Shown: positions 1-21,605 of the stretch, in pieces
Numbering within the stretch: the first letter of the stretch is position 1
Layout: each line of letters begins with the position of its first letter
NCBI GenBank assembly: GCA_037951105.1
Contig: JBAMJV010007397.1
Span: forward strand, 104,501 to 168,500
Source: Echinarachnius parma
Lineage: Eukaryota > Echinodermata > Echinoidea > Clypeasteroida > Echinarachniidae
Direction: 5' to 3'
Length of the DNA stretch: 64,000 nt
Translations under genes and position numbers: made by a program
The notes under the pieces: model-generated
What the model was told of the DNA's origin: nothing
Database searches by the model: none
The model's input: the letters and a program-made list of their open reading frames with translations, nothing else

Positions 1-890
1 ATTAACTCAGCGCTGGATTGCCCGTTAACCCATTGAGAACGAAGACCACATATTTATTCCTAAGAGGAAATAAATCTCTATTGTATCAACAAATTGGCAA
101 TAGAGGAAACTTGATGTTTTGTGTAGACAAAATAAAATATGCACATTTGGCAATCCTGTCCAATCTTAAACGTTGCCAATTTGCACCTAAAATAGTGATC
201 TTCAATCTGTTTATGTTGCCAATTTGACAATTCTCAGATTATTTTGCCTAAAATAATTCCTACAATGTATGAGCCGTCGCAACATTTAACTGTGACAAAT
301 GAGGGCTCATATTTTGCAATACACTTTTCTTTTTCTTTTGGTACATAATTCAGAACCCTTTCGTGATGTTTTGTCAGTTACCCAGTTGTGCGCGTTCTGT
401 CCAATTAGATTTGCACATTTTTGAACGCGAGATCTGTGGATTATAATTGGCTGCGTCTCTTTCCGCGGTAGGGTTCCGGTATATATGCTACCTTGTGAAG
501 GTCCAGATCACATTTTTAGCCACACTATACTTGCTAGTGCACTTAAATTATCTTTATTATTATCTTGACTTATTGATTATTTGATATAGGGTTGATACAT
601 TTCTCTGAATTATTCTATTTTGATATTCTCTAAAAAGTTATTATAATATTTGATTTTCTATTACACTTTCTTACTATTACGCTGAATTATTTATTCAAAT
701 TACTATTGAAATATGAATTTAAATAATTGCATTCTAATGTCTCCTAGGAACTGGCAGATTACAATGTACTTGATATCGCACTTAAATTTATATTACTATT
801 ATCTGGAGCTATTATTAGATATACTACTTTGAATTATTTCATTTTGATATTAATTATTTCAAGAAGCTACAGGGAAACCCCGTTATAACG
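1..890. repeat. Dispersed repeat R1, copy 1
   Basis: Almost the whole block recurs at 16575-17460 in the same orientation with scattered substitutions and short indels (shared anchor TGTATGAGCCGTCGCAACAT). It has a TATA-like GGTATATATGC and an internal degenerate repeat (GCACTTAAATT at about 538 and 779). No coding sequence. A long terminal repeat or segmental copy is possible. Confidence 0.8.
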
Positions 891-949: not shown

Positions 950-1689
950 TTTTAGGGAAGGATATATATTTTTCTGTATGTATCTGTATACGAGTGGGAA
1001 AGAAAACATTAGTTGTATGAGCTAAGACTTGTTAATTCTAACGTTAACAGTCATTTATACATCCATTTTCAATTTTCGCTGCGCGCTTTGCGCGCGAACA
1101 GATTATCTCATAACTTCACCATAATAGCGAGTATCTCAGTTTGTTGTGTAACTTGCGTATGGTCTTGGGTGAGTATTTTTTTCTGTATACCGGGCCACGT
1201 AGTTCCAGTGTAGGCTGGCATTGCTCTGGCTGCTTGTGTGACGTGCAGATTGCACCATTTCAAGTATATTATATTGGTCTAGTGTGCAACAACACATGGA
1301 AGATAAAATAATTTCCTTATATAAGTTGCACGGGCAGCCAGGCTACAACATGATAAGTATCAAAATTTACTTAAGTCATGAGAATATTGCGCAGGGAATG
1401 AAATAATGAGCAAAAAACGTCTCTGAATGTAATTCCGTTATGGTGGAATTGCCCATATGTTCAAATCTTATTATATTACCAGAGGTAATGTGTGATATTT
1501 TACCACTTGGCAGTGTACATGTAATACAATTTTACTCAAATGTAAAGTTCAAGTATGGATTAGCTAATGATTACATTGACCATATTCCAACACTGCTTAT
1601 TCAGAAGAGTGACAGTTGAACATCAATGCATATGAAAGTACAATATTCAATTACTCTCTTGCACAAGTTGGGGTAAATCATTGTAATAT
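950..1689. other. Gene-free stretch, nothing recognised
   Basis: AT-rich DNA without supported exons or clear repeats apart from a short GCGCGCTTTGCGCGCG palindrome near 1080. Confidence 0.5.
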
Positions 1690-1855
1690 ATGCTCCCCAG
1701 GGAGTGGAGATGGTACACACAATGTGTGCTGGTTTGCATTGTATCCTATGACCGGGGGTAATATTATCATTGTAAAGCGCTTAGAGATGATTATCAATAA
1801 TATTAGGCGCTATATAAATCGAAACATTATTATTATAATTATTAATAAAGTTTGC
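1690..1855 (+). mobile_element. SINE-A, 5'-truncated copy
   Basis: Matches the last part of the SINE at 59985: CCGGGGGTAATATTATCATT, then AAGCGCTTAGAGATGATTAT, then GGCGCTATATAAATCGA and an ATT tail. The tRNA-derived head is missing. Confidence 0.8.
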
Positions 1856-1859
1856 AGGC

Positions 1860-2400
1860 TACTTTGTGTGAAATGACAAGTAGTTGTTTTCAGATTATTG
1901 TGTAACCAAAGACATTAATTTCATATCAAGAAACAGGTTGCTGCCTTTAAAGATGAGTCACATGAACTTTTGTCTCTGTAAATTGATTGAGGAATGAATG
2001 TGAAGATTTTGGGTTTATCTTTGTTATTTCATAAATTATCAATGCATTCATAGTACATGTAGCACATTTTGTTTGATTGTTACAATGTATCTTGTCCATA
2101 CCAGAGTACTTTCAGACTGAATTTTCTTTTAAAATTTGAATTGTATTAATTTTGTCCACTCTGGAAGAAAACTGTGTCATCTATTATTCAATGATATATT
2201 ATCATTATTTTTTTTGGTCCCAGAATATTAAGATAGTTTATAGTTCTGAAATGAATCATTTTGATATTCCTGGTTGTGTGTCTTGTTATTCCAACATTTA
2301 ACAAAATGATGTATCACATCATGACATCTTGCATTGAATTAAAAAAAAAAAATATTAACTACTTTGGTGTGTATTTACATATATATGAGTGATCCATCCT
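1860..2400. other. AT-rich, nothing recognised
   Basis: No exon, RNA gene or inverted repeat that I could support. Confidence 0.5.
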
Positions 2401-2402
2401 TA

Positions 2403-2590
2403 GCTGATGAAGATGATAATAATGAGCATGATGGTGATGATGATATTGATGATAGTTATGTTGGGATATGATATGATTAACATGGCTATTATGATGATGA
2501 TGATCATAAGATGGTTTTAATGATATTGATGACTATGATGATCACGATAATGGTTGATGATGATGATGATATTGATGATTGGGCTATAAT
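2403..2590. repeat. Degenerate GAT/ATG-rich low complexity
   Basis: Imperfect (GAT)n-like tract interrupted by AT stretches; frames through it are low-complexity. Confidence 0.75.
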
Positions 2591-2980
2591 AATATTATAC
2601 AGATATTGACTGTCTAGAGGGGCAATATAGCATTTGAGATCCTCGAGGGAAGTTATATTTTTGTCGAGGGACATTATATTTTCCGTAGCGCCTAGCGCTG
2701 AGGAAAAAATATAGTATTCCGAGACAATTTCCATCTAAGAGAACTAGGCCTACCCCCTGGACAACTACCCTCTCCTGTTATTATCTATATCTCATGCGTT
2801 GATTGCTATGAGAGATACGCATTCGTTTTATGTAAGTTGTTTAGGATTTGGACAATGTAAATAGATCCCTTAGCTACAACATCTTGAAATTACATTTACA
2901 ATGACAATAATTTAATTTTAAATTCAATTTATTCCATTCTTGAACAGTATTATACAGTATATAAATAACATGTTCATTAC

Positions 2981-3622
2981 CCGTAAAACTCCGTGTATAA
3001 GACGCACTTTTTTTCCGTCGGAAAAATTTCAAAGTGGGGGGTGCGTCTTATACACAGGTATAGGAAAAAAAACACCTGTAGTCATGGTGAATGTGTATAC
3101 ACATGGTTTAGGGCATGACAAGAGCTTGTTGTCAGTTGAAGCATTCAGCAAGATATACCCTTTTCTCACACAAAAAATATGAGCAGTAATACTGCTGCTA
3201 ATGAATATTCATACATTTGTGAGCAGCAGTACTAATTAAGTATGCAATTTTCTAACCAGTGGTTATAAGTTTTGCTCATAATTAGAAATAGTTGTTAGTA
3301 AATTTAGAAAATTGCATTATATTTAGTGAGTATTGGTGCTCATGAATATTCATGAATATGAATATGAATATTTATGAGCACCAGTGTTACTGCTCAATAA
3401 ATGTGCAATTTGTGTACTAACCACTATTTTTATGTGAGAAAATGATGTTGATGAATGCTACATTCAACAATAAGCTATTGTCATGCCCTAGACCAGTGGT
3501 ATAAGCATTCCAACAGCACTTCAGGGTCTTTTAAAAAAAATACAGGGTGTCCCAAAAAAAACGCTGTGAAAGTTGGGGGTGCGTTTTATACACGGGTGCG
3601 TCTTATTCACGGAGTTTTACGG
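2981..3622. mobile_element. TIR element (MITE-like) with inner palindromic halves
   Basis: Inverted ends CCGTAAAACTCCGTGTATAA (left) and CGGAGTTTTACGG (right) with GACGCAC / GTGCGTC just inside. The two halves are also imperfect inverted copies: GGCATGACAAGAGCTTGTTG mirrors CAACAATAAGCTATTGTCAT. No transposase remains. The superfamily is not assigned; flanks TTAC/TAAT leave the target duplication ambiguous. Confidence 0.8.
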
Positions 3623-3629
3623 TAATATC

Positions 3630-4930
3630 AATATAAATTCAAAAGATAAAATGCTCCACTAAAATAGAAACTGTACACTCGTATAAGATTTAATATTTCA
3701 TATTCATTTACGATATCATCTATGATATTGTATGAACTAAACCCCTTAATCACATAAAAATAAATATTTCAATGTTAAAATTACTTATTTCATAATCAAT
3801 AAGGAGTTTTAACCCTTTAAATATTGGGGTAGTCTGGGCATAATACGATGTATTAAATATAATCTGAACTGCCCTTTTCTGAAGTTAACATAAACTTAAC
3901 ATAACAGTAATTGATATGGTAAATAATCAAAGCATAACAAAAAATAATTGAAATACATCTTGAGTAAATGTCATTAGGCAATGAAGTAATTTAAATTAAA
4001 TATCAATTGGGGGCTCCGGTACAGCGCCCCCGCCCCCAACGCCCCTAAACGTAATTTTTGGCCTGGGCTACCCCTCTACTGAATTAGTAATATTGTTTAG
4101 TAGGTTTAGTATTTAGCTCTGTGCCAAGAATGGCGCTTTTGTCCGGCAGGTAACGATAATTTCACTAAGCCACCTGACTATAATAACCTATCACCTATTG
4201 TGAAATCATTATTATATGAGAGCAAGCGAATTGAAATTAATAAGCTTAATTAAACAAATTATAATTATGTACGTATTACAAGTTTAATATCAATATTTTA
4301 CCAACATTCAAGGGAGCAAACTGCACCCATTAACATATCGCCACAGTATGATACTGAGATCAATTACTTTCATGGCACAGCATATTACAGAGCATATTAT
4401 TACTAATTTCGTAATCTGTATTACAAATACGTCACAGTTACAGACAGAATATAATTTAATTTGATATTACAATGGGAACGGTTATGAAACGTGACATACT
4501 GTAATCCAGTGTCGTCGTACCATGTATCTTGCTAAAGGATTATTATTATTAATTTTTTTTAAATCTCAGTTCGTTAGTGTGAACTTTTATAATTCCTTAA
4601 CTGGCTTGCACACACACCTTGATTTATATTGTTCAATACGTATTATAATATAGGTAATTTTGTATGTACTGAATTATAATATCATAGTATTTCATCAGGT
4701 GATAGTCTGTACAATCAGCCTTAGTTTACTGAAGTAATTTTATGATAAATCCTCATCCCCGCCGAAGATAATTGATTATTAAGTTATAACCTATATATTA
4801 ATGAAAAAGATAAGTGTAAGTTAAGGGGATTTCTCCATGACTGCCAATAAGTCTGCATTACCCTTTTTTGTATTGTGCAGTAAGGAGTATTTTGGTTTCA
4901 AAATGATGTTTCAAGTCAGATAATCTAGAC
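3630..4930. other. AT-rich, gene-free
   Basis: No exons recognised. A 19 bp word (TTATAACCTATATATTAAT) at about 4785 recurs at about 5252, bracketing the left arm of the next element. Confidence 0.5.
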
Positions 4931-6558
4931 ATAATCCCAAATTAAGAAAATAACATCGAAAAACCGTGTTTCCCCCTAAGGCGCAGTTTTATAGCATTCA
5001 ACATATAAGAGCATCATTTTTTTCATGTGGATATCTCCTTCTGTTGACATGGGGGTATAGTATAATCGACTCATATTACGCCTTATGGTGTTGTTTTGAT
5101 GCAAACAAAGTAGCACATGATAAAACTAGCAGGAAGGGCTATAAAACAGTGGTCAATTCGTTAGGGCGAAAGGTATGTTTCCCCTTAACGACACATTCCC
5201 CCTAACGTGCTGTTTTATAGCACGCATATTCGCCCTAAGGCGACTTCTAAGCTTATAACCTATATATTAATTTTTTTTTTGTCAGGTTAGTGAAATATGA
5301 TGCACGTAAGCATCCCTCCCGAACCCTGATTGACCCTGGTCAAAATGGTCATTTTTGGAAATCTGGACATCGAATTTTCAAGAAAATGCAAGTGGCTGGT
5401 AACGTGCTAGGAATACATACTCCTATTTAGTTTGCTGCAACATAAAACAATTATGGGAAAGTCCGATTTTGAAAGAAAAAAAATTTAAAATTAAGAGTAC
5501 ATCATAGTAAACATCCTCTGTGAATTTGAGCCAATTCCAATCATTTTAAAAAAAGTTATGGCCGTTTTCTATATTATCCACTTGAGAAAATCGTTACAAT
5601 TGGCTGGAAAATCTTCTTTTTGCCATATCTCAAGAACCAAATGACCAATTGACACCAAACTCGGTATATTCATGTATCTAGGGGGATAGATGAAGGGTTG
5701 TGATTTTAAGGTCATTTGGTCAAAGATCAAAGGTCACATGTCACAGGTTTCCATTTGCGTGATTTTATATCTGGCAAATGTATGTGTTATAAGATAAGTT
5801 ATTTTCTCAGCCAATTACTTGTATTATGCAATAAATTATATATATTTCCGTTAAACATGAGTTGCTAATCATTTCTATATGTCTCATTTAGTGACTTCTG
5901 CATTCTCAAAAAAAAATATTTAAAGGCTGAGACAGGTTTTTTTAAAAATATTTTCGCGAAAAATTCTTTAATTCACCTGAAATTCACACTGGGGGCTTAT
6001 AAAGGCATACCGAATAATTGTCCAAGGTTCCAGCAATTGTTTTGTAATAGTCACAGTAAAAAAAACGTCGGAATTAGTAATCTCGAGTATATTGTGTAAT
6101 ATACTTTAAGCGCGCGGTTACTGATTATTAGTAATCTCGAGTATATTGTGTAATATACTTTTAGAGCGCGGTTACTGATTATAATTATTTAGTATCAGTA
6201 CTATTAGCCGTGTCCGATTTGTAATACAGATTATACAATTATATAATTCGTTCAGTCTACTATAACGTAAAAAATATATAATAAGCTTAGAAGTAGCCTT
6301 AAGGCGAATATGCGTGCTATAAAACAGCACGTTAAGGGGAATTTGTCGTTAACTTGGGGGAAACATACCTTTCCCCCTAACGTTATCATGTGCTACTTTG
6401 ATTGCACCAAAACAACACCCTGAGGACGTCCTAGCTATGTCAACAGAGCGAGATATTCACATGACAAAATGATGCTCTTATAATATGTTGAATGCTATAA
6501 AACTGCGCCTTAGGGGGAAACACGGTTTTTCGATGTTATTTTCTTAATTTGGGATTAT
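4931..6558. mobile_element. Long-inverted-repeat element
   Basis: Ends ATAATCCCAAATTAAG and CTTAATTTGGGATTAT. The arms (about 4931-5262 and 6281-6558) carry mirrored blocks such as TTTCCCCCTAAGGCGCAGTT and AACTGCGCCTTAGGGGGAAA, and GTGCTGTTTTATAGCACGC. No transposase frame. A related fragment is at 21425-21475. Confidence 0.8.
6074..6181. repeat. Two 54 bp tandem units
   Basis: ATTAGTAATCTCGAGTATAT starts at about 6074 and again 54 bp later, both ending GCGCGGTTACTGATT. Confidence 0.85.
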
Positions 6559-6559
6559 T

Positions 6560-7188
6560 TGGGATTATATAAATGCGTTTCACGAAGCTCATGACAACTT
6601 GTCATCGAAAAAAATTGTTTTAATCTTTTATGGACGAGCCTGAATGTATAATCTGCCAATACAACAAGAAGCCAGCAAGAACCAAATGATGGCCGTAAGT
6701 TTTTATCTTATTTTGTGTTTAATGTGTGATTGTGAGTTTGCATGCTATGTCATTCAGCTATTATATGTCATTGTTATCGACCTTACATATTATTTGTTGA
6801 CAAACTATGTAGAAAATCGTTATATTTCAATGAAACCCTTCGATATTGCACTAGAGCGGTTATCGAGATCGCACCCCGCCGAAACTCTGCGGTGGCTACT
6901 AATTATGTCCAAAAACCCGTCTCCCTGGCTATAAACGCGAAATAACATTAAACCTCCTTCACTCCTTGACCTTGTCCTTGCCCTTGATCTTACTCGAGTA
7001 AGACTAAACTCTAAAATTTAACACCTTTCTTTGTCATAACTTGCAGCCATGATATGGTAGACTGTCTCTGGTCTACAATTACAAAGAGCATTGTAATTGC
7101 CCTTGACCTTGTCAAAGACTTTGACCTTTGTGTCGTGAGTTTGCAGAAGCCAGCCTAATAAATTGTGCTAATACTTACTAATATTATA
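6560..7188. other. Gene-free, nothing firm
   Basis: A short ATG-starting frame at 6630 ends soon and has no supporting neighbour. Repeated CCTTGACCTTG-type words near 6960-7110 have no assigned role. Confidence 0.4.
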
Positions 7189-7341
7189 CAACTAACGAAT
7201 GGGCTTCTTGTGATAGTCAAATCTATTACCGAGGTGGGCTCAAAATGATTATTACCCGAAGCGTAGCTGAGGGTAATAGTCATTTTGAGCCCACCGAGGT
7301 AATAGATTGCCTATCACAATCAAGCACATTCGTTAGTTGTT
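7189..7341. repeat. Foldback sequence, 153 bp
   Basis: CTATTACCGAGGTGGGCTCA is inverted as TGAGCCCACCGAGGTAATAG around a GAAGCGTAGCTGA centre; the outer ends ACTAACGAAT / ATTCGTTAGT also pair. Hairpin-forming, MITE-like. Confidence 0.85.
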
Positions 7342-7344
7342 TTA

Positions 7345-8555
7345 TATCACTCATCAATATCAGTGATTGTGTTCAGCTTATAGCAAAATAAGTGATAATC
7401 TCTGAATATTTCATAAAATCGCTTGTAAATTTTGATATAAAAATCAATCGACATTAATGAAGCCAGTATGAGCCTCCAGAACCATGGCGCATCTAATACG
7501 CTTAAAGTCATTGTTATTTTGCGCACACAATCACAAAGACGCAAAACTGAGTGCGCACCAACGCGCTGGCAGTTGCGCACATACGCGATGAATGCGTGCT
7601 AGCGCTCCCACGGATGTGCTTATTGGCTGTCTTGGCGTTCTTCTTCCCAGGGTGTTAGTTTTTACCAGCAATGTCAATCACGTGACTAGAACGTGTGCGC
7701 CATAGAGTACTGCACAAATTTGATCGCGTGTGCATTTTGCTTAAACACATGATCTATGGGACGAATGCGTAACAAACTTTTAGTGTTAATTTTTTGCTAA
7801 CAGCCCGGTCACATGATTGCGCGGGGATTGCGCGTGTTGTCCAAAACTATCATTTGTCAAATACAATGGTAAAACGATCTTATGAGGGATATAATAATAA
7901 TTAATAATTTTAATATTATTATAAATTTATATGCCACGAGTATAGCCACTAAACAAGGGTTAGGTTTATATGTTATAATGGTATAGTATGCAGTTGGGCC
8001 TAGTAATACACAATGTTAATTGTTATGTGATGTAAAGTGTAATTGATTAACTTGGCGCTAGATAAAATTGACAATTTTTCGCTCCATTCCAAATCAAAAT
8101 ACGTGATTTCTGCACCACCTCGACTTCTCTCCGAGTCGTATCGCGACTTGTGACGTTGTGTTAATTAGCCTTTGCACTATCATATCAGTGGCAGCACGGC
8201 TAGTATGCTCCCCAGGTAGTTGAGATTAAATACCAGTGACAGTGTGTCACTTTAAAAAAACGGCGAGTGCATCTGCACTCCCATGCAGGATACTCATACT
8301 TCACAACTAGCTTGATGCGTTGACTGAAGTAAGCGAACAAAACTAATTCAATATACTAAATCCTAAAATAACGTACAGTCGTACAAGTTGAAGTAGTACT
8401 ACTAGTAGACAGAAGTACTAGTACACATTTAATTCCTATTTGAGAATTTTAACAGATATGATCATTAGACAACATTCAATGCTAGTGTTATTTCAGTCAT
8501 AAATTATTGAAATTCTGATATGTATTTTTATTGTTCTATTATCTCATTCAATTTA
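7345..8555. other. Gene-free stretch before the Myb-like exon
   Basis: Moderate CpG content near 7500-7840, otherwise AT-rich. No exon supported. Confidence 0.45.
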
Positions 8556-8558
8556 CAG

Positions 8559-8663
8559 GAATCAAGCCGAAAATCAAATCTTTCTACAGAAGATATCAAG
8601 ATTCTTGCTAATTTTGTCAGCGAAAATTATGATGACATATTTGGGAGAGCAGATCGGCCACAG
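8559..8663 (+). CDS. Isolated exon with Myb/SANT-like sequence
   Basis: A clean exon of 35 codons, phase 0 to phase 0, between acceptor ttcaatttacag and donor CCACAG|gtaagc. It reads ESSRKSNLSTEDIKILANFVSENYDDIFG and ends RADRPQ. The pattern 'lysine-rich, x-(L/F)-(S/T)-x-E-D/E, then (V/I)-x-x-x-Y/D-x-(I/L)-F-G' resembles the first helices of the Myb/SANT-like DNA-binding domain found in NAIF1-like and Harbinger-associated proteins. No matching next exon was recognised; 12735 has a good acceptor but its reading does not continue the domain. Confidence 0.5.
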
Positions 8664-8954
8664 GTAAGCAGGGAAAACAATGAAATATATATATCACTTT
8701 ATCAGGGACTACTTTTTAAGCCATGCCTGCACAAAAATTGATTTAAGTTAAAGGAAGTTTATTGGGCATGGAATGTCTTCTACAACATCTGTACATTGGA
8801 CATTAGATATTTAACTTGTATAATTAAATCAACTTTTATAGAGAAAGGCGCAGGATCACGCGAAGTGATGCAGCTTTTTTTTATTAATTAAATTCAAACA
8901 TAGAGGAAACTGACTAGAAATATTTGAGTGATTAAAAGTGAGCAAAGAAAAATA

Positions 8955-9026
8955 GGCTTCGCCGGGAATCGAACCCGAGACCGCCGGATTGCTAGACCGG
9001 TGCTCAAACCATCAAGCCACGAAGAC
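8955..9026 (-). tRNA. tRNA, anticodon AGC (Ala codon), left arm of palindrome
   Basis: 72 nt with all arms. Acceptor GTCTTCG/CGAAGCC has one mismatch (T2:C71). D-stem GCTT/GAGC. Anticodon loop CTAGCAA gives AGC. Five-base variable loop. The T arm has a perfect B box (GGTTCGATTCC). A TTTTT terminator follows within four bases of the 3' end. It lacks the G3:U70 pair that marks alanine tRNAs (here C3:G70). The body and the loop CTAG-AA resemble tRNA-Thr(AGT) with one anticodon change. Confidence 0.82.
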
Positions 9027-9191
9027 TTTATATGGTGGGCGTTCCCATGAAACCCTTTTCAATGCTCGATTAGTCAGAAGCTATATAAACTGGGCCAATT
9101 GATTTAATTATTCTTGGGATTGGCCCAGTTTATATAGCTTCTGACTAATCGAGCATTGAAAAGGGTTTCATGGGAACGCCCACCATACAAA

Positions 9192-9263
9192 GTCTTCGTG
9201 GCTTGATGGTTTGAGCACCGGTCTAGCAATCCGGCGGTCTCGGGTTCAATTCCCGGCGAAGCC
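9192..9263 (+). tRNA. tRNA, anticodon AGC (Ala codon), right arm of palindrome
   Basis: Differs from the left copy at one base, in the T loop (GGTTCAATTCC instead of GGTTCGATTCC); both are allowed purines at position 57. It has the same T2:C71 mismatch, the same anticodon and a TTTTT terminator at 9266-9270. The fold is canonical, so it may be transcribed; its charging identity is uncertain. Confidence 0.82.
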
Positions 9264-9329
9264 TATTTTTCTTTGCTCACTTTTAATCACTCAAATATTT
9301 CTAGTCAGTTTCCTCTATGTTTGAATTTC

Positions 9330-10120
9330 ATTTTTATTAATGTTAACATTGTAAGTGTAACATTTGTATATTTTTCTTGACAGAAATACAAGTTTGATAG
9401 TGGCTGAATTGCTGGCCTATTGGAAGTTCTGATCCAAGATCATACATCATGTACCTCTCTCTGTTCATCAGGCCCAACTTCCCAGCCCACTTTCTTGGCC
9501 CCAATCTTTGGTAAGAATTAAAAATTAAATGTTTTACATTTACATCACAGTCATACATTTAAATGATAACATACATGGATATTTCCATATATTAGATGAT
9601 GGTACAGACAGCAGAGATTACCTGTGAACAGTCATTGTTGGATATTTCATAATTCATTTTTGTGTTATATGTATCAAGTCAGACCATTTACATTTATTTG
9701 CCAAGGGTTACTTTGCAAGCAAGCCTTCATGAAGAGAGCATGCTAGAATTGTTTTGCAAAATTATGTAAATTTATAAGGGCTCTTTTTGGTATTTGGGGG
9801 AGCTAAAGAGCCCTTTGTTCCCCTCTCCTCTCCCATATTTCTTCCTGCATTATGCATATTGAATATAATTATGATACCGCATTGGCTTTTGATTTAAATA
9901 GAATATCTCCTTTTTTAATTTCTTTTTAAAATTAGAAATGCTGAGATTCTGGGCACATCACGTTGATCTGTCATAAAGACCAGTCATCGCACTTGCAGGT
10001 CCATCCATCCAGGCACGCATGTATGTTGAACTTCAGAAGGACAGTCTTCGAAAAGGTGTAGAGGTACATTATTAGAGAGACATTTGACACTTTTGTTATT
10101 CTAAACTTTTGTATTTTAGT
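9330..10120. other. No supported gene
   Basis: An acceptor-like cttgacag (9382) and a donor-like CTTTG|gtaaga (9511) frame a 128 bp stretch, but every frame has stops. Non-coding exon or chance. Confidence 0.35.
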
Positions 10121-10124
10121 TAAT

Positions 10125-12134
10125 GGGCAATTCCAAGCAAACGCCGTGACGGTCAGAGGGTGTTTCTCACAATGAAAGTCCAAATAACTCATAAAATCTA
10201 AATATCTAGAACCAACTTTTGATATGCATCTGTTACCACTATCCTACCAATAATTTACAATAGGAAAGAAAACCAAAATTCCCAATAAATTATGAATTAT
10301 GAATATCAATATCTGCCGTAACACCGTGATGGCAAAAAGACATGGGTTTCTTACATGCTAAGAAACTAAGTAAACTCTGTGAACTACCTGAACATTTTGC
10401 ACTTTTGTCACATTGATTCTTTGTACTAGACATCAAGCTAGAACATCCAAATAAAAATGTAGAAAAAATCCAAAGTTAATAGTAAATATGATATCATAAA
10501 TGTATCTATGCACTGTAACGCCGTGACTGTAACGCCGTGACTGTAACGCCGTGACCTCTGAATTGTACATGTTATATATATGGGAGATATTAAAGAGATG
10601 AATAATATGATATAATTTTAATGTAGTGATCCAGAATCAATAAAGAACTAGATGAATGGGTGATATAACCAAGATGCTATTAAATGATCATCCGCATGAC
10701 ACAAATTTGCAGCACAGCGCCCTCTATTGATCAAAAAATCTTTTAGGACATAATTGAAATTCTTATCTATTTCAGAAGTTAGTTAATGGAACCATCAAAT
10801 ATTAAAACCAACATACATACTTAAATGTAACAATGAAATATGAGACCTTTGACCTTGTTTCTCAAAATAACATACAAATGTTTAATTTTTGGTCTGCACA
10901 GTGCATATTTGCAAGTGATTTGTTTCATGTAACATGATTTCAGAGTTAGTAAATGTTCGTTTTTGAATTGGTAATTATCCGAGTGACCTTTGACCTGTGC
11001 CCCAAACAGTTTCAGAAAATTGTCTTTTACCTACAGTACTCTTTCTAACATTGATTCTGGAACTTAATTGTGAGAACAAAAAACAACAATATTTTGACCT
11101 GTTGACCTATGACCTCCCATGATCCCATTCCCTAATCAGGTCATATACTTCACTGGATGCATACCAGTATTATTATCATGTTATCCTTCAAGGATTCTCA
11201 AACTATCTTGATAATAATATAATTTTTGCATATTTGTTAGCTATGTGACCTTTGACCTTTGACCTCATGGACCAAAATCATATCCAATAATCTGTACCTC
11301 TAAATACATGGATTGTACAAAGTTTGAACGAAATCCATCCAACGATTCTTGAGATATTGCAAAAAAAAGAACACTGATGTACAGATGCACATACAGACAG
11401 ACGGACGTACAACCCATACACATACATGACTCGGGTAACTTTGAGATGGAAACATTATCAACTGACCCTATTCATATAATTATAGCATGAGCAATGCCCA
11501 AGCATACCTCCAATAAATATCTTACACTATTTGATTATGTCTACTGTGTTATGTCAATGGGAATCCAGTAGGTAGCGTCACGGCGTTACACAAAACGTAA
11601 CGCCGTGACCAAATTGATATTGATTATATTAATAAGTGGTAAAAGATAATGCTGCTATTCAGCATGCATATTATAGCCCTATGGGCTAATACAGAGAAAA
11701 CAAAAAATTATTTCATTCCCATTCATATTTTTCCAGAAATATTAAAAATATCTGTTTTTAGTGTAACGCCGTGACATATTGATGACTGTAAATGAGACAG
11801 TCACTGAAGCGGAACGAAGAGCGAAAATGACGAAATCGATGTTTATCTGAAAAACTGAAGCAATGATCCTATCAACACTGAAATAAAATTTTATGAAAAC
11901 TCCTTTTCGCAGTTCTTTTATGCTTACTATTTAATGGAATGTTTTGTGAAAATAACTGAAAATTAATTTATGCTATATATTAACAATAAAATGATAGTTT
12001 ACAATTTTTTTTTTCAAAAACAAAATGCATTTTTGGAAAGTTCAATCTTTTAGCTTTCATTTGATACCAAATTTGTTATGGTACAACGAATTTGAAAATT
12101 CAGTGGTTATGTCAATGTTTGCTTGGAATTGCCC
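10125..12134. mobile_element. 2.0 kb foldback-type TIR element with repeated GTAACGCCGTGAC motif
   Basis: 18 bp perfect terminal inverted repeats GGGCAATTCCAAGCAAAC, flanked by TAAT on both sides (target duplication TAAT, or TAA with a terminal mismatch). Inside, the 13-mer GTAACGCCGTGAC or a close variant occurs about eight times: at both ends, as three tandem units near 10515-10553, as an inverted pair near 11576-11608, and near 11762. No transposase frame. Confidence 0.85.
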
Positions 12135-12138
12135 TAAT

Positions 12139-12734
12139 ACAATACACGATTTTATTCTATAAGCTCAGAATTTGTGTCAGATAACAGGATTAAAATGCTA
12201 TGCTGAACATGTACAAATACATGTTCTCTATTGCCTAGTCCCAGACGTTCATTTAAATGTTTGTTATTAATTTGGCCGTTTATAATGAGGTAAATTTGAA
12301 AGTCCTAGTTGAATTTAGTTGAATTTAACAAAGATTATCATTCACTTTATACAACCCTGTTCCTTATTTGCTTTTTCTGTTGTTAAATTTTTTATTTTGT
12401 AGCTTGTTTGTTATTTTGTTTAATAATAATTATTTTTAGTTAAACCAATCATTGACAAGTGTCCACAAATTATTTATTCTATAAAAAAAATATTGTGAAC
12501 TGTAGGAGATTATGATAATGAGCAATTTCTTGGATAATATCCAAGGTCATTAGCAGTTTACTTGATCATTCCATACAGTCTTCCAAGATATGCTAGACTA
12601 AAATTAATAAAGCGGCAGGGTGATATCTTTATGAATTGCATAGTTAACATGCAAAATTTTGAGCTCGCTCTTTCCTTTGTCTGCTGATTGCATTTAATGG
12701 GCACTATTTTGTTTATTTTTTCTTCATCTGCAGA
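12139..12734. other. AT-rich, nothing recognised
   Basis: Ends in a strong acceptor-like pyrimidine tract and ctgcag at 12734; the sequence after it (ILATAVQPQDITGWDELV, then stop) matches no family I know. Confidence 0.4.
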
Positions 12735-13169
12735 TACTGGCCACTGCTGTGCAACCTCAGGACATAACTGGATGGGATGAGCTTGTAGGGACTCGCTTCA
12801 CAGTCTGAACATCAGACTAGCCATGCATGTACAACAAACCATCGATACCAGCTTGGTAACTCATCCACTTCAGAGGAAAAGCTAGACCGATGTTAACAAA
12901 ACAACTTGGAACCACTTCCTTACTCTGGCCTAGCGTTTACTTTCGCCCAGATAACTGTCTCTTTGTTCCAAGCTCTCTTCATGTCAGGTACATTGACTTT
13001 TGGCAAAACATCACTACTCTCTTTCTACCTCTCATCCAAAGAACACCTTCGCCTTCTACCTCCTCTTTGACATCGCCATGTGCAGTTACCATCTGACTCA
13101 CATGGGCATCGACAACCATGGATTGTAAACAGGGCTACAATCCATGCCTCACTCACACACCTGTAATAG

Positions 13170-13208
13170 GGGAGAATCTGCCGACCAACATGGCCAAGCC
13201 TGCTTACG
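13170..13208 (+). CDS. Candidate end of an upstream FN3 domain exon (same titin-like gene)
   Basis: The end GENLPTNMAKPAY plus one base, followed by donor ACG|gtaagc at 13208/13209, resembles the linker after an FN3 domain. Its phase-1 end plus the next exon's AT makes aspartate, giving AKPAYD-VPHAPSKP, the standard linker between titin FN3 repeats. The start is uncertain: ctgtaatag just upstream is the nearest acceptor, which would make a very short exon, and no FN3 sequence is readable further upstream in frame. Confidence 0.45.
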
Positions 13209-13420
13209 GTAAGCTTCTCCACATATTTTGTGAATTTACTTTATCAGTATTTTGGTTTATACTGTTCTATTCATTCAGCATTGGTTCGGAAAACATTTTG
13301 GCTGGGGTCTATGCCTGCTAGATGTATACCAAAAAAGTCTTGAACACGTTGGAAAAAGTATAATTTAAGCATCAATTATTGATGGATCAGTCTTGTGTAA
13401 GGTTAGAAAGAGTTCTTGAA

Positions 13421-14155
13421 AAAGAAATATGGAACCCTTGAATTAAATCCTATGCTTGATTTTGTATCACGAACAGATAAATATATTATCACTGATCATT
13501 GCTTTGTCATCATTAATTCTATATGAGCGGTTAACATCATCAGGGTGCCCCTAGTAGACTCTACTGTGCGCCACAAGTGTCTAATGACAGATGTGCTCGC
13601 GCTATAAATTTATAGTTATTATTAGTATTATTATATGCTTTTTATAGGCTCATTTACATTGTAATTGTGCAAATTTACATCTGATTTTAATTTTACTTTG
13701 ACAAATTAATTACTTTACAGATGTGCCGCATGCTCCAAGCAAGCCACAAGTCACTGCCGTTAACGCAACCTCAGTGACCCTCAAGTGGCGACCACCAACA
13801 GAAGACGGTGGCTCTCCGATCACTGGCTACGTCGTCCAGAAGAAGGAGCGACTTGCCCTTCGTTGGACGCCGGTGAACTCCACTCCGACCACCGAGGCCA
13901 TCTTCACGGTCACCGGACTCATGGAGAAGTCTGAGTACGAGTTCAGGGTATATTTGGACAGCCCAGCGAGTCGACCGAGTCTGTGCTGGTCAAGCCTCCA
14001 TATGGTAAGGCCATAAAATGGACTTTATTTTGCTCACAAAAGTGAGTAATGTGATACAATGCTAATGATAAGTGCTTATGTACAAAAGTACCAAGAAAGA
14101 AATATGGAACCCTTGAATTAAATCCTATGCTTGATTTTGTATCACGAACAGATAC
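13421..14155. repeat. 62 bp direct repeats flanking the FN3 exon
   Basis: A block of about 62 bp (starting AAGAAATATGGAACCCTTGA) occurs near 13421-13482 and again near 14093-14155, one copy on each side of the FN3 exon. The second copy runs directly into another duplicated block (14151-14440, repeated at 15929-16230). Confidence 0.75.
13721..14004 (+). pseudogene. Titin/twitchin-type fibronectin type III exon with a frameshifting lesion
   Basis: Acceptor aattactttacag at 13720; donor TATG|gtaagg at 14004/14005. Read from its phase-1 start, the exon gives VPHAPSKPQVTAVN, SVTLKWRPPTEDGGSPITGYVVQKKE, WTPVN and EYEFRV: an FN3 domain of the titin/twitchin/projectin class. The expected end (PSESTESVLVKPPYG) is present but in the +1 frame. 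Exons of this class are bounded by phase 1 on both sides and need a length divisible by three; this one is 284 nt. The loss lies just after EFRV, where FN3 domains carry a short A-E-N-x-x-G-type segment; a deletion of 22 nt would restore a 306 nt exon. Either the copy is non-functional or the assembly lost bases here. Such proteins act in muscle sarcomeres. Flanking 62 bp repeats show that the exon lies in locally duplicated DNA. Confidence 0.75.
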
Positions 14156-14472
14156 TACTCATTAATTTCTGCAATACCCCTTAACTGGAAAGCAGGAAAG
14201 CAGTTATGAGGCATAATTTCATTGAAAATGCTGGAGAACGTTCTGATGAACGATTTGATCTCTTTCTACAAGTTAAAAGAACCACAACATTTTGATATAC
14301 CATGTTTGTTAAAGAGCATTGCTCACCAATTTCTGATTTAAATCAGCAACATGTGATTATTACTTGTTCATTTACATTTCAGTTGTGTGGTATACTTTCT
14401 GAAACATTCTGTAATACATGTATTGATACATTCTGTATATATATTTCTTCGCACGGAGTAAAATTATATTAA

Positions 14473-15732
14473 AGGGGACCACCGGGCAAATAACAACACA
14501 TTACTACATGTTTTGGTACCGTTTTGTGATATAATAGATACCTAACATTTTGCAAAGGGTTGAGTAATTCATAAAAAAAGCAATTAATTTCCACCACTTA
14601 TGGAACCACTACTATTTCCTGGTTTGCGAGTGCGCCAATTCTACTCACGCGTACGTTTGTAGGCAATATAATTCTGAGCGATTCGCTTGCTGCACCCGCG
14701 GTAGTCTACACAATTCAGACTGCATAAACGCATGCTTTAGAATGGTGATGCGGTTTCCAATTTTATTTTTTTTCTGCAAACATATTTTTGTGAACTTGTT
14801 GATGGAATGGAATACTAAAGATGTTACCTTTCTATTATACAAATATTAGTTTTGGGTGGTGGTACCCTTTAATAAGAGAAATGTCTTTTGAAATTACTAC
14901 TCCAAAACATAGATCAGAGTGAGTGAAATATTCATTCATTATCCTATTAACTATCAACCATTCATTCAGGTCTTTCCAAAAAGAGATCACTGTTACGGTA
15001 CACATTTAAGAAAAAGATGAGTAATTGTTTGTAAATATGAATGTTGCAACAGTTACACATTGGGGACGATTTTACTCCTATCTTAAATAAAAATTTGTTT
15101 GTTGAGATTATCCTATGAAGAAATTTGTATTGAAAGTTCAGGGTACCACCACCCAAAAATCATATTCTTATTACAGATTTATAGGTAACATCTGGAGTAT
15201 TCCATTACATCAACAAGTTCACAAAAATATGTTTCCAGAAAAAGAAAAAATACTTGGAAACGCATCACCATTCTAAAGCATGCGTTCATGCGGTCTGAAT
15301 TACGCAGACTGCTATGTGTGCGGAGCGAATGAATCGCCCGGGAATCTATTGTTTACAAACGTGCGCGTGAATAGCTGCATTAGCGCACTCGCAAATGGTT
15401 GGCCCGTATGGAACCAGTAAATAGCAGTGGTTCTGTAAGTGGTGGAAATTAATTGCTTTGTTTATGAATTACACAACCCCTTGCAAAATGTTGGGTATCT
15501 ATTTGATATCACAAAACGGTACCAAAACATATAATTAATAGCTGCATTAGCGCACTCGCAAATGGTTGGCCCGTATGGAACCAGTAAATAGCAGTGGTTC
15601 CGTAAGTGGTGGAAATTAATTGCTTTGTTTATGAATTACACAACCCCTTGCAAAATGTTGGGTATCTATTTGATATCACAAAACGGTACCAAAACATATA
15701 ATAATGTGTTGTTCTTTGCCTGGTGGTCCCCT
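14473..15732. mobile_element. TTAA-flanked foldback element, 1.26 kb
   Basis: Flanked by TTAA on both sides (14469-14472, 15733-15736). Ends AGGGGACCACCGGGCA and its inverse; the inverted arms extend for hundreds of bases (TTGGTACCGTTTTGTGATAT mirrored by ATATCACAAAACGGTACCAA). The right arm contains a 167 bp tandem duplication. TTAA targets are used by piggyBac and Kolobok elements; no transposase is present. Confidence 0.85.
15372..15705. repeat. Two 167 bp tandem units inside the TTAA element
   Basis: TAGCTGCATTAGCGCACTCG starts at 15372 and 15539, and the units are nearly identical to their ends. Confidence 0.88.
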
Positions 15733-16261
15733 TTAAGCTGTTATCAATGGATGATTTGTAAATCAATGAAAACCGAGTGTTCCAAGTGATTTGCCCATCT
15801 AAATTTTCCTCTATATCTTCATGAGAAATTTGTTTGAAAATGGTGTAATTGTTTTGAGAGATATATACAATGCTAATGGCTCGTTCTTAAGTTATGATGA
15901 ACAGGTTCGGATAAGTTCCCTATATTCAATACTACTCATTAATTTCTGCAATACCCCTAAACTGGAAAGCAGTTATGAGGCATAATTTCATTGAAAATGC
16001 TGGAGAACGTTCTGATGAACGATTTGATCTCTTTCTACAAGTTAAAAGAACCACAAAATTTTGATATACCATGTTTGTTAAAGAGCATTGCTCACCAATT
16101 TCTGATTTAAATCGGGAACATGTGATTATTACTTGTTCATTTACATTTCAGTTGTGTGGTATACTTACTGAAACAGTCTGTAATACATGTATTGATACAT
16201 TCTGTAATACATGTATTAATACACTCTGTAATACATGTATTACATTAATTTTAGATAGCCA

Positions 16262-16574
16262 CTTGTCTATAAGTAAAGAAGTCGATTATTAGTCTTTTGC
16301 GTTGAGATATTTAAAGCATTTTGTTGGTGAAGGAAGCTGGGAGTTTTGCAAGTACATGTAGTTTTAATATGAGAGAGTGCAGGCAATCATACAAAATAAT
16401 CCCACTTAATAACCAAATAAATCAAGTAAATTTTGGTTAAGATAAAAACTCTTTATGTCTTGATTTTCTAACTTAGACTTTGGGAAAAAGGGGATTTATT
16501 CCTTTTCTCGAACATTTCTGAGTGAAATCTTACAGACCAACAAATTAGAAAACGACTTTCATAATAGGTACATT
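16262..16574. other. Nothing recognised
   Basis: AT-rich spacer between duplicated DNA and R1 copy 2. Confidence 0.5.
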
Positions 16575-17460
16575 TGTACTCAGCGATGGATTCCCCTTTA
16601 ACCCATTGAGAACGAAGACCACATTATATTTATTCCTAAAAGGAAATAAATCTCTATTGTATCATCAAATTGGCAATAGAAGAAACTTGATGTTTTGTGT
16701 AGACAAAATAAAATATGCACATTTGGCAATCCTTTCCAATCTAAAACGTTGCCAATTTGCACCTAAAATAATGATCTTCAATCTGTTTATGTTGCCAATT
16801 TGAGAATTCTCAGATTATTTTGCCTAAAATAATTCCTACAATGTATGAGCCGTCGCAACATTTAACTGTGACAAATGAGGGCTCATATTTTGCAGTATAC
16901 TTTTCTCTTTCTTTTGGTACATAATTCAGAACCCTTTTGTGATGTTTTTGTCAGTTACCCAGTTGTGCGCGTTCTGTCCAATTAGATTTGCACATTTTTG
17001 AACGCGAGATCTGTGGATTATAATTGGCTGCGTCTCTTTCCGCGGTAGGGTTCTGGTATATGCTAGCTTGTAAAGGTCCAGATCACATTGTTAGCCACAG
17101 TATACTTGCTAGTGCACTTAAATTATCTTTATTATTATCTTGACTTATTGATTATTTGATACATTACTCTGAATTATTCTATTTTGATATTCTCTAAAAA
17201 GTTATTATATTTGATTTTCTATTACACTTTCTTACTATTACGCTGAATTATTTATTCAAATTATATACTATGTTACTATTGAAATATGAATTTAAATAAT
17301 TGCATTCTAATGTCACCTAGGAACTGGCAGATTACAATGTACTTGATATCGCACTTAAATTATTATTACTATTATCTGGAGCTATTATTAGATATATATA
17401 TTATATTATATTTTACTTTCCATTACACTTACTTACTATTACGCTGAATTATTTATCCAA
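16575..17460. repeat. Dispersed repeat R1, copy 2
   Basis: Second copy of the block at 1-890, sharing the anchors GAACGAAGACCACAT and TTAACTGTGACAAATGAGGG. It differs by small insertions, for example an extra AT-rich stretch near 17390. Confidence 0.8.
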
Positions 17461-17519
17461 ATTATATACTATGTTGAAATATGATTCTCAATAATTTAAT
17501 TTTAATGTTGTTCATTATA

Positions 17520-17765
17520 CTATTTTACTGCCCTGCGCTGGCAATTATATGCCAGTGTCCTGGGTTATGTATTTCTTTTTATTTTGTTGACGAAATTTGA
17601 CTAATAAAGTGATGATTTTAAAAACCTATAAGGTTCTTGATGTTTTTTAATTAGGTGCTCTCTATTCAAGCTGTGCTTTTAGAGATGTTCACCTCCAATT
17701 ATATTGTTTTGTTAATGTTTGTTATTGAAAATATTTGGAAATAAATGTTGTATTGAACTTGAACT
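17520..17765 (+). mobile_element. Probable LINE 3'-end fragment
   Basis: Ends GGAAATAAATG, TTGTATTGAACTTGAACT, like the GAACTTGAACT-type 3' ends of CR1-like LINEs, the same end as the element on the opposite strand at 18383. No RT coding sequence remains. Confidence 0.45.
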
Positions 17766-17850
17766 AAATGCCAAGTGTAGGCCTACTTATTGTTCTCCCT
17801 GTCATGATCGAAGGGGAAATATGAGATGCATTGTCACTATAGAGGGAAAT

Positions 17851-17882
17851 ATTTATTTATTTATTTATTTATTTATTTATTT
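17851..17882 (+). repeat. (ATTT)n microsatellite
   Basis: About eight TTTA/ATTT units. Confidence 0.9.
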
Positions 17883-17994
17883 TGGTATACATTTCAAACT
17901 GATCAGCAGCAGTGCTGAAAGGATCAGTGTACATTGAACTTCAAAACATACATACTATAAATAATACAATATAATTGAAATATAAACATGCATT

Positions 17995-18378
17995 ATTGTC
18001 ACTAAGAGGGGAAATATGAACTTATAATTCCCCTTTGTCACTTTTCACTAAGAGGGGAAATATGAACTTATTATTCCCCTTAAGCCTGGCGCAGACAGAG
18101 CCGACTCGACCCGATCCGACTGGTTTTAATCAGGCTAGAGTTGGGCCCGGTCGGTCGGAGCAGATTTATCGTGTTGAATCGGCCCCAACTGGCATCCGAC
18201 TGTCTCTCGACTGGCAAAATATGTGTCGCGAGGCACTGAAAACTGAGCCGATCGGAATGACAACCAGTCGAGTCGGCTCTGTCTGCGCCGGGCATTATGG
18301 TCACTTTTCACTAAGAGGGGAAATATGAACTTATTATTCCCCTTATGGTCACTTTTCACTAAGAGGGGAAATATGAAA
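17995..18378. repeat. Minisatellite split by a MITE
   Basis: Repeated units CACTAAGAGGGGAAATATGA, then ACTTATTATTCCCCTT, then ATGGTCACTTTT, four in all. The MITE at 18083-18294 sits between TTA copies in one unit; the adjacent unit at about 18345 shows the uninterrupted CCCCTTATGGTCAC. Confidence 0.88.
18083..18294. mobile_element. PIF/Harbinger-like MITE, copy H1
   Basis: Inverted ends AGCCTGGCGCAGACAGAGCC and GGCTCTGTCTGCGCCGGGCA, flanked by TTA on both sides. Three-base TTA/TAA duplications are typical of PIF/Harbinger; assignment beyond that is inference. Other copies at 40257 and 63264. Confidence 0.85.
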
Positions 18379-18759
18379 TTATTCTCAAGTTCAACTGTTC
18401 AAGTTCAGTTTATTTCACATCACATTAAAAATACATCAAAATATACATCAAAATATATATACATAGGGAACAGTATAGAAAACAGTATTCAAGAGTATAA
18501 ACAAACATCTAAAACATCTACACACAGCTATACAAGGACATGATAAAATCATAATAATAAGCCGTAGAGGATGTGAGGGAAAGGCAAAGGCCATTGGCCT
18601 TGAACATTGGCCTGTCAAGGCCTTTTCCCTTTTTTAAACTACAACTTATTGAAATAAATATCAAAATTAATTACAAAAACACACGTAAAAAGCAGACGTT
18701 TAAATTATGGATCTATTGTAATAACGTATAATTCAATAATCCTTTATACTTCCTTTTAA

Positions 18760-19985
18760 AATTACCTAGAGTTGGACACTGTTCGAGTTCATCAGGCAAA
18801 TCATTCCACACTATCGCACCTTGATAACTAATAATTGATCTAGAAAATTTATATTTACAGAACGGAGTATATATTTTATATGTGAGTTCCTTGTTTTATA
18901 CACATTTACATCCCTATTATATTTAAAATATCCATCAAAAAGGGGAGGTAATAATTTTTTGAAATATGAATACATAAAACATGCAGTCTGCAATTTATTT
19001 ATGTCATATACATTTAATATTTTCAATTTCAAAAATAAATCATGTGTATGTGCTAAATAATGTGATTTAGTAATCGCACGGACAGCCCTTTTCTGTAATA
19101 AAAACAATCTATTCAATAAATAAAATGAGCAATTGCCCCATACAATATTACAATAACTTAAATGTGATAAAACCATACTATTATATATATTCACTAACAT
19201 TCGCAAAGGCAAAATATATTTCAAATTATTTAATACTCCAACTATTCTCGAAATCTTTAAAGAAATATAACTAATATGCTCATTCCAACTTAATTTTTCA
19301 TCTATAAATACACCAATAAATTTAGTACATTTTACTTGCTTTATTACAACCCCATTTAATTGAATATTTATCAAATCTTCATTAATATCTAAATGATGTG
19401 GTCTAAATATTATATAACATGTTTTACTGTAATTAATTTGGAGTCTATTACATGTAGCTATAAACCATGATTGCACTTTACCCATTTCTACATTAATTAC
19501 ATCATTTAAATGTTCTAAATCTTTACCCGACACATAGGCCTATAGGCTAGTATCATCAGCAAACAAAAGTACAGATAAAACATCACTTACATATTGCAAA
19601 TCATTAACATAAAGCAGAAACAAAAGAGGTCCCAGGTTAGATCCCTGAGGTACACCAACAGAAATATTTCTACACTGTGAATTATGACCATCTATACATA
19701 CATACTGTGTCCTATATAACTTTGAAACCATTTTAATGCGATACCTCTTATTCCGTAAAAATTAAGTTTTTGTAATAAAATAGAATGATCAATACAATCA
19801 AATGCCTTTGACAAATCTAAAAAAAGTCCTATAACTGTTTCTTTTTGCTCAAGGCTTTGGCAAGTTTATCTGTAAAATCAATGAGGGCATGATTAGTACT
19901 ATATCCTTTTCTAAATCCTGTTTACTGTATAAAATATTGTGTTTATCAACAAAATGTATCAATTTATTGTATACAATCCTGCTAG
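18760..19985 (-). pseudogene. LINE reverse transcriptase remnant
   Basis: In three frames: RT finger/palm start (IVYNKLIHFVDKHN), then [17 protein letters not shown] and FADDT (catalytic aspartates present), then the thumb and C-terminal region (LSYCNIVWGN, LQKRAVRAI, GAIVWNDLPDEL). Stops occur at about 19535 and 19735, with frameshifts at about 19800-19850. The domain follows ORF1 directly, with no endonuclease. Confidence 0.85.
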
Positions 19986-20823
19986 TAAGGTCTTCATGTA
20001 CAGATAGGCCGGTTCTCTTCAGATTTCTCTTCACTTTCATGATTTCGATTTTTTTCTTGTAGGAGCACAGCTTGATGAGAATGGGTCTCGGTTAAGATGT
20101 CTTGTTTCCACTTCCAGGACCCGAGACACGAGGCTTCCCCGATCTATGGCTGCTTTCGATGTCATCCGGCGAGAGTGAGCAGGGAAGGTTTGAATTGAGC
20201 GCTTGGATGACAGCTCGGTCAGTGTTTTCTCCAACCGCTTCTGGAACCCCATACAGCCTGATGGAGTTCCGTCGATTATGTTGTTCTGCATCATGTAACG
20301 TGTTCTGCATGGCATCGATGTGGTCTTTCATCTCGCTGACTGATTTTGACAAGGCTTTCACTTCTTGGGCTTTCTCATCTAGTGAGTTCTGCATGGTTAG
20401 TAGAATTCCATCATGATTTTCAAGTCTATTTTCGGTTTCTAAGATGCGTTTAGAGAGATGTTCCTTCACTTCAACGATTGTGTTTGCGACAATCTTTGCT
20501 ACACAATTCTGTAGTAGCTTTGTGAAGTCAGTATCCTGTAGTAGTTGTTTTATAAAACCCGAGAAATCAGACTGCGCACAGTTCAAGCTTGGTTTTGACT
20601 TGTCTGATTTCTTTTGGCTTGAGGGTTGTTTTTTTGAAGACTTTTTCCCTTTAATCTTCTTCTGGCTTGTGGATGCAGATGCAGTTCGTTTTGATGTTCT
20701 TGTGTTTGCACTTGCAGGTGTATTCATGATTTCAGTTTCAACATCGTAAGAATCGTCAAGATTTGTTGTCACATTAACAGTGTCGGCCATGATGATCAAT
20801 ATTAAAAGTTTATTCAAATGCAA
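19985..20823 (-). pseudogene. LINE ORF1 (coiled coil + RRM-like domain)
   Basis: The protein starts at MHLNK (20823) or at the inner MADTVN (20787). It has a low-complexity Ser/Lys/Thr N-terminal third, then a heptad-rich coiled coil (ETENRLENHDG, LLTMQNSLDEKAQEV), then NRRNSIRLYGVPE and SSHRSGKP, the marks of an ORF1p RRM-like domain. The C-terminal part (KRNLKRTGLSVHEDLT) is in a second frame, so there is at least one frameshift near 20092. ORF1p binds the element's RNA. Confidence 0.82.
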
Positions 20824-20830
20824 ACGGACG

Positions 20831-21117
20831 TAAATTCATATCATACGAGTCAACTGAAAAAACATGCACTTTGCGTGATCAACGTATTGTATTGCATATA
20901 CCTGTACGTACTAACTCACGATGTAGTGTGTGGGACTACGTAGGTCGGCTGGCAGCTAGTCGGTGTCATTATTCAGTTCATTATTCAGCTTAAAAATCAA
21001 GATTCATGATATTCGTTACCGTAGATGCTCCAACCAAGCTAACTCATAACTCCTTGCTCCAACCAGGCCATTGAAGATGGTGTTAAGACGTTGTTTAGAG
21101 CATTTCCTTGATGATAT
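20831..21117. other. Nothing recognised
   Basis: Flank of the LINE 5' end; no promoter motif that I can support. Confidence 0.4.
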
Positions 21118-21274: not shown

Positions 21275-21424
21275 TTTTCAAGCAACCAAAATAAGTATGT
21301 TTGTTATGTTCATTCTGAATCTCAAACAAATATTTCAGAATTGTGCATATAATCAAATAGTATCTAATTCATGAAGAACATATGGAAATATGATGGTTAA
21401 TTGTCTTAAATCAGCAAATTTCTT

Positions 21425-21475: not shown

Positions 21476-21477
21476 AC

Positions 21478-21605
<128 letters not shown>

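Follow-up and report, generated by a model that had tools for sequence, protein, structure and literature searches.

A tRNA-derived SINE begins at the 5′ end of its tRNA and is mobilised by a LINE that has the same 3′ end, and the Twin SINE of Culex pipiens is reportedly a retroposon from a dimeric tRNA precursor, with two tRNAs in direct tandem. Helenus is described as a TRIM with a tRNA-like sequence in its LTRs (PMC10886601). The Penelope element of the rotifer Adineta vaga (Pen2a) is presented as an insert bounded by direct and inverted pseudo-LTRs, where one inverted copy may carry an extra tail of 31 bp, with a TATA in the repeat that can be read both ways, partial tandems, and target duplications of 8–10 bp, and as having mobilised a host gene in trans (PMC3846280). 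Animal non-LTR retrozymes are characterised in the reports drawn upon as tandem repeats of ~150–450 bp with a G+C content below 50% and target duplications longer than 4 bp, and these non-autonomous elements have been proposed as riders on Penelope-like elements (PMC7229834, PMC7761336). For L1, inverted copies attributed to twin priming are stated to make up 30.9% of insertions, with duplications of 10–17 bp (PMC2912911).

The window, meaning here the whole stretch of 64,000 nucleotides that was analysed (G000:C7386:104501-168500, from a 1.2-Gb genome), contains a palindrome with inverted arms at 8886–9099 and 9119–9332, each of 214 nt and separated by a 19-nt spacer; no ungapped inverted pair of greater length is reported for this stretch. 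The near-identical palindrome that the first-pass annotation had placed at 8890..9328 is thus real and even extends further, with three mismatches in 214 positions (8889/9329, 8970/9248, and 9030/9188), two of which fall inside 8890–9328. The same annotation had described two complete tRNA genes in the inverted arms differing at one T-loop base, and on this ARAGORN (tRNA-Ala with anticodon AGC at 8953–9027 on the minus strand and 9191–9265 on the plus strand) and Rfam RF00005 (47.2 bits for each, at 8954–9026 and 9192–9264) agree, the difference being the pair 8970/9248. No other tRNA was detected by ARAGORN over the whole window, and RF00005 was the only family above the cut-off in an Rfam scan of it. 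A TATA-like box lies at 9130–9136 (+) in the right arm, ~55 nt upstream of the tRNA gene, with its mirror at 9082–9088; a T5 run of the Pol III terminator type directly follows the tRNA gene at 9266–9270 (+), mirrored at 8948–8952. A pattern search of the unit consensus located the B box of the internal Pol III promoter, GGTTCAATTCC, at 9243–9253 (+), the A box matching a relaxed pattern only. The possibility that the palindrome is an assembly foldback is refuted by 18 contigs that match the entire 511-bp query around it at 99–100%, and divergent copies elsewhere, having different flanks and mostly different inner junctions, also speak against it. A blastn search of the palindrome against plasmids returned short pieces only (best E 0.4, in the best 5 of 24 records).

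At least 218 pieces matching the 511-bp query were found in the genome. They are of two main kinds, the full-length matches at the 18 contigs just mentioned and many half-length pieces lying in head-to-tail arrays with a step of ~287 bp. The repeat unit, taken from the array at locus L016, comprises 287 bp with a G+C content of 41.1% and, numbered in tRNA sense from U1 to U287, holds a TATA near U20, the tRNA at U81–153 with the T5 run directly after it, and a second TATA at U267. Between 1 and 18 such tRNAs per stretch were called by ARAGORN in 20 stretches of 10 kb. The left arm corresponds to U8–U287 in reverse and occupies 8820–9099 (−), matching the unit at 99.3% (L009). Homology extends to 8820 in arrays with other flanks; since the whole of 8820–9099 belongs to the unit there, the start of the element lies to the left of the palindrome. 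Read by eye against the unit, the right arm at 9100–9328 (+) consists of U276–U287 followed by U1–U217, the palindrome spacer being mostly the head of this arm, and the two arms meet at the inner junction 9099/9100, where U8 stands head to head with U276. As a separate observation, window 8820–8885 (+), which is U222–287 antisense to the tRNA, carries a TATA, after which come a small hairpin and then a T8 run, resembling a short Pol III gene; there may be a faint likeness to the 3′ part of U6, and Rfam gave no match for this antisense stretch.

A total of 17 independent insertions were read (the window family, L016, L017, L020, L021, L026, L027, L028, L032 to L038, L040, and L041), and their edges differ from locus to locus. 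L019, L025, and L042 were counted together with the window as one insertion because a target repeat is common to all; likewise, L018 is the same insertion as L016, and L022 the same as L021. Edge repeats of 11–17 bp are common to both sides in 15 of the 17 loci, their lengths being those of the longest exact matches, which may contain a few unit bases. Left and right edges paired between different loci share 5.9 bp on average and reach 11 bp or more in only 6 of 304 pairs, the window family having been entered twice in this comparison, as L019 (longest shared repeat 9, with an indel) and as L042 (12). No convincing target duplication was found at L026 and L033, a 12-bp edge match at L033 having been rejected because its sequence belongs to the unit. 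At the window locus, the surviving copy of the duplication is CATTTTTATTAATG at 9329–9342, identified from edges and empty sites, and its left counterpart is retained in L019, L025 (one base changed), and L042. The sequence TTTTTATTAAT at 8878–8888 resembles the target duplication and is a decoy: it had been considered together with 9331–9341 as the target-copy pair of the window insertion, and was rejected since the left one is unit-internal in arrays. Although TTTTTATTAAT has 3 matches in the window against 0.36 expected, the pair at 8878 and 9331 is a coincidence.

Empty sites were sought by joining the flanks in silico with one repeat copy for 15 of the 17 loci (all except L026 and L033) and scoring the 40 best candidates. 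Full-length matches were obtained for six of the 15, namely the window family (11 places at 98–100%), L035, L017, L021, and L040 (one place each at 97–99%), and L041 (26 places of a repeat at 95–97%). Seven empty places were aligned, two for the window family and one for each other locus, and the joins were continuous, with two single-base gaps near the site in the case of L040. The single partners at 97–99% could represent the other allele, in which case those insertions would be recent. The tRNA repeat was inserted with target duplication, as the empty sites and edge repeats demonstrate. The genome search for copies of the palindrome and its flanks with and without the tRNA, as had been suggested at the outset, thus yielded both dispersed insertions and empty sites, and the idea of a mobile palindrome that carries tRNAs holds in so far as a mobile tRNA-bearing family exists; what moves is the 287-bp repeat.

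The 17 loci comprise 10 divergent insertions with the tRNAs pointing outward and six of a single orientation with scattered 5′ heads (L026, L027, L034, L035, L037, and L038), L033 being assigned to neither class. All 27 outer ends lie within U176–187 or U215–224, i.e. near U178 or U221, compared with 2 of the 27 inner heads, the remainder being scattered across the unit with two more at U225, just outside; these windows were chosen after the data had been seen, positions were entered by hand, and one of them, at L020, was moved by visual trimming from 191 to 183. In all 10 divergent loci, an end of the U178 type is paired with one of the U221 type. The inverted insertions bear a tail of roughly 40 nt on one arm, the two end sites being ~43 nt apart. 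The inner junctions differ at most loci, and this, together with the six single-orientation insertions, suggests that inversion takes place during insertion. Both heads (U8 and U275–276) are common to L040 and the window family, with nine extra bases in L040, and the right head of L028 is common with them; junction hot spots, or copying of the palindrome as such, could account for this sharing. Microhomology is seen at L020 and L037, where several bases at the edge can be assigned to the target repeat and the unit alike. Two cDNAs meeting midway, each started from a different strand of a staggered cut, would leave this picture. Arms longer than one unit occur, and their length suggests a template of more than one unit, such as a read-through or circular RNA. 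An old and diverged 83-nt unit fragment at L029 (185–267), outside the 17 loci and with no clear target repeat at its edges, covers U95–178 and likewise ends at U178.

With a probability of roughly 0.75, the window palindrome is a single insertion of a young non-autonomous retroelement that was inverted on landing via target-primed reverse transcription. The unit consists of a TATA-bearing leader, a 73-nt tRNA gene, and a trailer. An RNA covering more than one unit would be copied into the nicked target, with one target strand priming near U221 and the other near U178, each via a few paired bases, and the two cDNAs would extend inward and join at a variable point. The product would be two divergent arms with outward tRNAs between direct repeats of 11–17 bp; later, arrays would expand and contract by unequal exchange. 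In the window, a deletion would have taken the left edge, and a large segmental duplication would then have carried the insertion along. That RNA is the intermediate, how priming proceeds, and which enzyme acts are inferences from the sequences compared; for the enzyme, the likeliest candidate, at slightly better than even odds, is a Penelope-like reverse transcriptase with a GIY-YIG nuclease. The fixed U178 site, for which no cause is apparent, is a point against this mechanism.

Penelope-like elements are the best anatomical match of the tRNA repeat, both displaying inverted arms, a tail on one arm (31 bp against ~40 nt), tandem partial units, and a TATA, and all 10 divergent loci combine direct and inverted pseudo-LTR copies with a short tail and a target duplication. 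The target duplications are nonetheless of 8–10 bp there and 11–17 bp here, and, unlike Penelope, the repeat carries a tRNA gene while the copies read are devoid of a reverse transcriptase or nuclease frame: inspection by eye of frames of at least 170 aa at the tRNA loci revealed no reverse transcriptase with GIY-YIG in the element, and no Penelope reading frame joined to the tRNA unit was found. The genome contains at least 17 GIY-YIG matches, and L044 combines RVT_1 with GIY-YIG. None of the 15 contigs listed with GIY-YIG matches occurs among those listed for the unit. Three Penelope copies of one family were read (L044, L045, and L046), of which L045 alone has the inverted form; its segments at 899–2103, 2568–3888, and 4676–4932 are arranged as a divergent inverted pair with a partial tandem, the inverted arms sharing 98.8% identity across 1205 nt. 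The idea that the Penelope copies have a fixed 3′ end was rejected, since the L045 end is internal according to L046. Comparison of the unit with these three copies gave no convincing match, the best being 21 bp long with 86% identity or an exact stretch of 12 bp, at E ~0.1.

The tRNA repeat also shares with animal retrozymes the tandem units of 150–450 bp, the low G+C content, and duplications longer than 4 bp, given its 287-bp unit at 41.1% G+C, up to 18 tRNAs per locus, and 11–17-bp duplications. Animal retrozymes have a hammerhead ribozyme, whereas the repeat has a tRNA gene instead, which occupies the place held by the ribozyme. The hammerhead family search found none at E ≤5 in 1.3 kb of the L016 array and none at E ≤3 in L042, and a pattern search of the unit found only one-mismatch cores, CTGACTA; the presence of a hammerhead in the unit was rejected accordingly. 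An apparent microRNA precursor at the L042 palindrome centre (RF04164, 41.7 bits against a cut-off of 73) was likewise dismissed as the plain hairpin of two arms. On these comparisons, the element would be a non-autonomous retroelement, Penelope- or retrozyme-like in form, distinguished by the tRNA gene in the repeat and by the lack of a detected ribozyme. Tentatively, and at rather less than even odds, it may be a Penelope-driven “tRNA retrozyme”, that is, a retrozyme relative without the ribozyme in which a whole tRNA gene within the pseudo-LTR supplies the Pol III promoter and RNase P/Z perhaps replaces self-cleavage, palindromic tRNA pairs being a by-product of insertion. Among the best literature matches, in which subscription journals are thinly represented, no title or abstract describes a tRNA gene located in the pseudo-LTR of a Penelope element or in a retrozyme. 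Should Penelope enzymes indeed drive it, the copies, being short and young and having empty sites, fixed outer ends, and varied inner junctions, would document cleanly how inverted repeats could result from Penelope-type insertion.

Other tRNA-bearing elements are more distant. The Twin SINE, to the extent of its available description, likewise is a retroposon derived from a transcript with more than one tRNA; the tRNA repeat differs from it in its divergent arms and in its spacer-plus-tRNA unit, arrayed up to 18 times. Nor does the repeat begin at the tRNA 5′ end as a SINE does, its heads being scattered and the tRNA-upstream sequence lying inside the unit. Helenus, as portrayed, resembles the repeat in being small and mobile and in having a Pol III promoter of tRNA origin within the terminal repeat, and differs from it as an LTR retrotransposon with a primer-binding site, a polypurine tract, and 4–5-bp duplications (PMC10886601).

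The main rival to the Penelope engine, rather unlikely in itself, is that a LINE mobilises the tRNA repeat in trans like a SINE, the inversion being ordinary twin priming. LINE-like reading frames, recognised by eye, lie ~10 kb away in the window, and target-primed reverse transcription in general would account for the 11–17-bp duplications, the microhomology at the edges, and the 5′ truncation; L1 twin-priming insertions and tailless tRNA retrocopies, as reported, resemble the repeat in insertion logic and end microhomology (PMC2912911). Against it, inversion is rare in the Alu and SVA copies that L1 mobilises in trans (a single inverted Alu insertion is reported, and 4 inverted copies among 477 SVA insertions, compared with 10 of 17 loci here), and the portion of that source drawn upon does not describe two fixed end places (PMC2912911). 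Nor does twin priming alone predict that all 10 divergent loci should have a second fixed site ~43 nt away from the other.

A normal host tRNA gene array, kept under selection and dispersed by chance recombination, is improbable. The fold is intact in the copies scored (40.5–54.8 bits), the B box and T5 run are present, and 46 of the 78 complete tRNA copies are identical; target duplications and empty sites nevertheless show insertion. Conservation was assessed on 91 units from 18 loci, a set that includes the old L029 fragment and leaves out the window-family loci except L009, as well as L018 and L022. Without CpG sites, variation in the tRNA is 0.66%, about half of the 1.0–1.3% in the 3′ spacer, yet equal to that of the leader (0.68%), and with CpG sites it is 0.96%, inside the spacer range of 0.75–1.24%. 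The anticodons of the 78 copies are AGC in 74, TGC in three, and GGC in one. The tRNA has no G3:U70, the identity pair of alanine tRNA, and is mismatched at 2:71 and 31:39. Selection on the tRNA is thus hardly visible at the sequence level, some weak constraint may exist, and the simplest reading would be that the tRNA is a promoter kept by the element rather than a working tRNA. Counts of tRNA genes in such genomes should be treated with caution, as they include mobile copies.

The capture of a tRNA gene by a foldback or MITE-type DNA transposon bearing long terminal inverted repeats is very improbable as an origin. The inverted arms and target duplications of at least 11 bp would suit it, and Drosophila Foldback has tandem sub-repeats in its arms that recall those of the tRNA repeat. 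The outer ends, however, are two different sequences (U178 and U221) with no common terminal motif, in place of the shared terminal inverted repeat and fixed-length duplication of such a transposon; the duplication length varies from 11 to 17 bp, and single-orientation copies with scattered heads exist. Weakest of all, with practically no probability left, is the view that a resident tRNA gene was duplicated locally in inverted form and that the arms are kept alike by gene conversion between them, both of which had been proposed in the first-pass annotation: the arms are 99% identical, L042 arms are identical over 171 positions, and opposite arms of one locus (98.5%) are one point closer than units of different loci (97.5%), but joining the flanks gives an empty site that has a single target copy, which refutes recent inverted duplication at the window locus, and arm differences persist and vary among duplicated copies. 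Conversion is not needed, given that units of different loci reach up to 100% identity, and it was rejected as the cause of arm likeness because, among copies of the duplicated segment described below, the palindrome (0.74%) differs no less than its flanks (0.36%) and so evolves no slower. As products of insertion by the retroelement, inverted near-identical tRNA pairs are explained otherwise than by gene conversion.

The retroelement insertion in the window sits in a segment of more than 24.5 kb that has been copied around the genome. Aligned with contig C3519, this segment spans window −2999 to 817, 1102 to 18083, and 18075 to 21575 at 98.6–99.6%, and a probe from 20000–20600, within a LINE-like frame, matched 23 contigs over its full length at 98–100%, and 16 of these belong to the 18 that match the palindrome. 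The duplicated segment (window 1–21575 plus at least 3 kb upstream, L043) may be a segmental duplication or a giant element. Direct repeats of ~1.5 kb, 92% identical and 16.6 kb apart, lie within it at −679..823 and 15896..17396. Of two frames at 18811–20835 (−), one resembles, by eye, LINE ORF1 and the other the last part of a LINE reverse transcriptase, the latter giving no Pfam match at E 0.01, and a frame at 13723–14016 (+) looks by eye like the fibronectin type III repeats of a titin/twitchin-like protein.

Changes after insertion are also evident. Within the window family, L042 has both target copies and two tRNAs, and L019 and L025 have three tRNAs; from the window-type copy, ~0.4 kb is missing, a loss that covers the left target copy as well as a partial unit. 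L016 and L018 have their flanks and inner junction in common, yet hold 18 and 5 tRNAs, respectively, and the unit lengths in the L016 array (3488–8585) follow a higher-order pattern of five units. Arrays therefore expand and contract where they have inserted. The TGC anticodon occurs in L016 in two units that are five apart. At 5157/5158 of L023, a 41-nt deletion (U113–153) has removed the 3′ half of one tRNA up to its exact 3′ end. Finally, one tRNA array occurs twice in L026 (1018–1811 and 4320–5113), 3.3 kb apart and with the left flank in common, as a tandem locus duplication.
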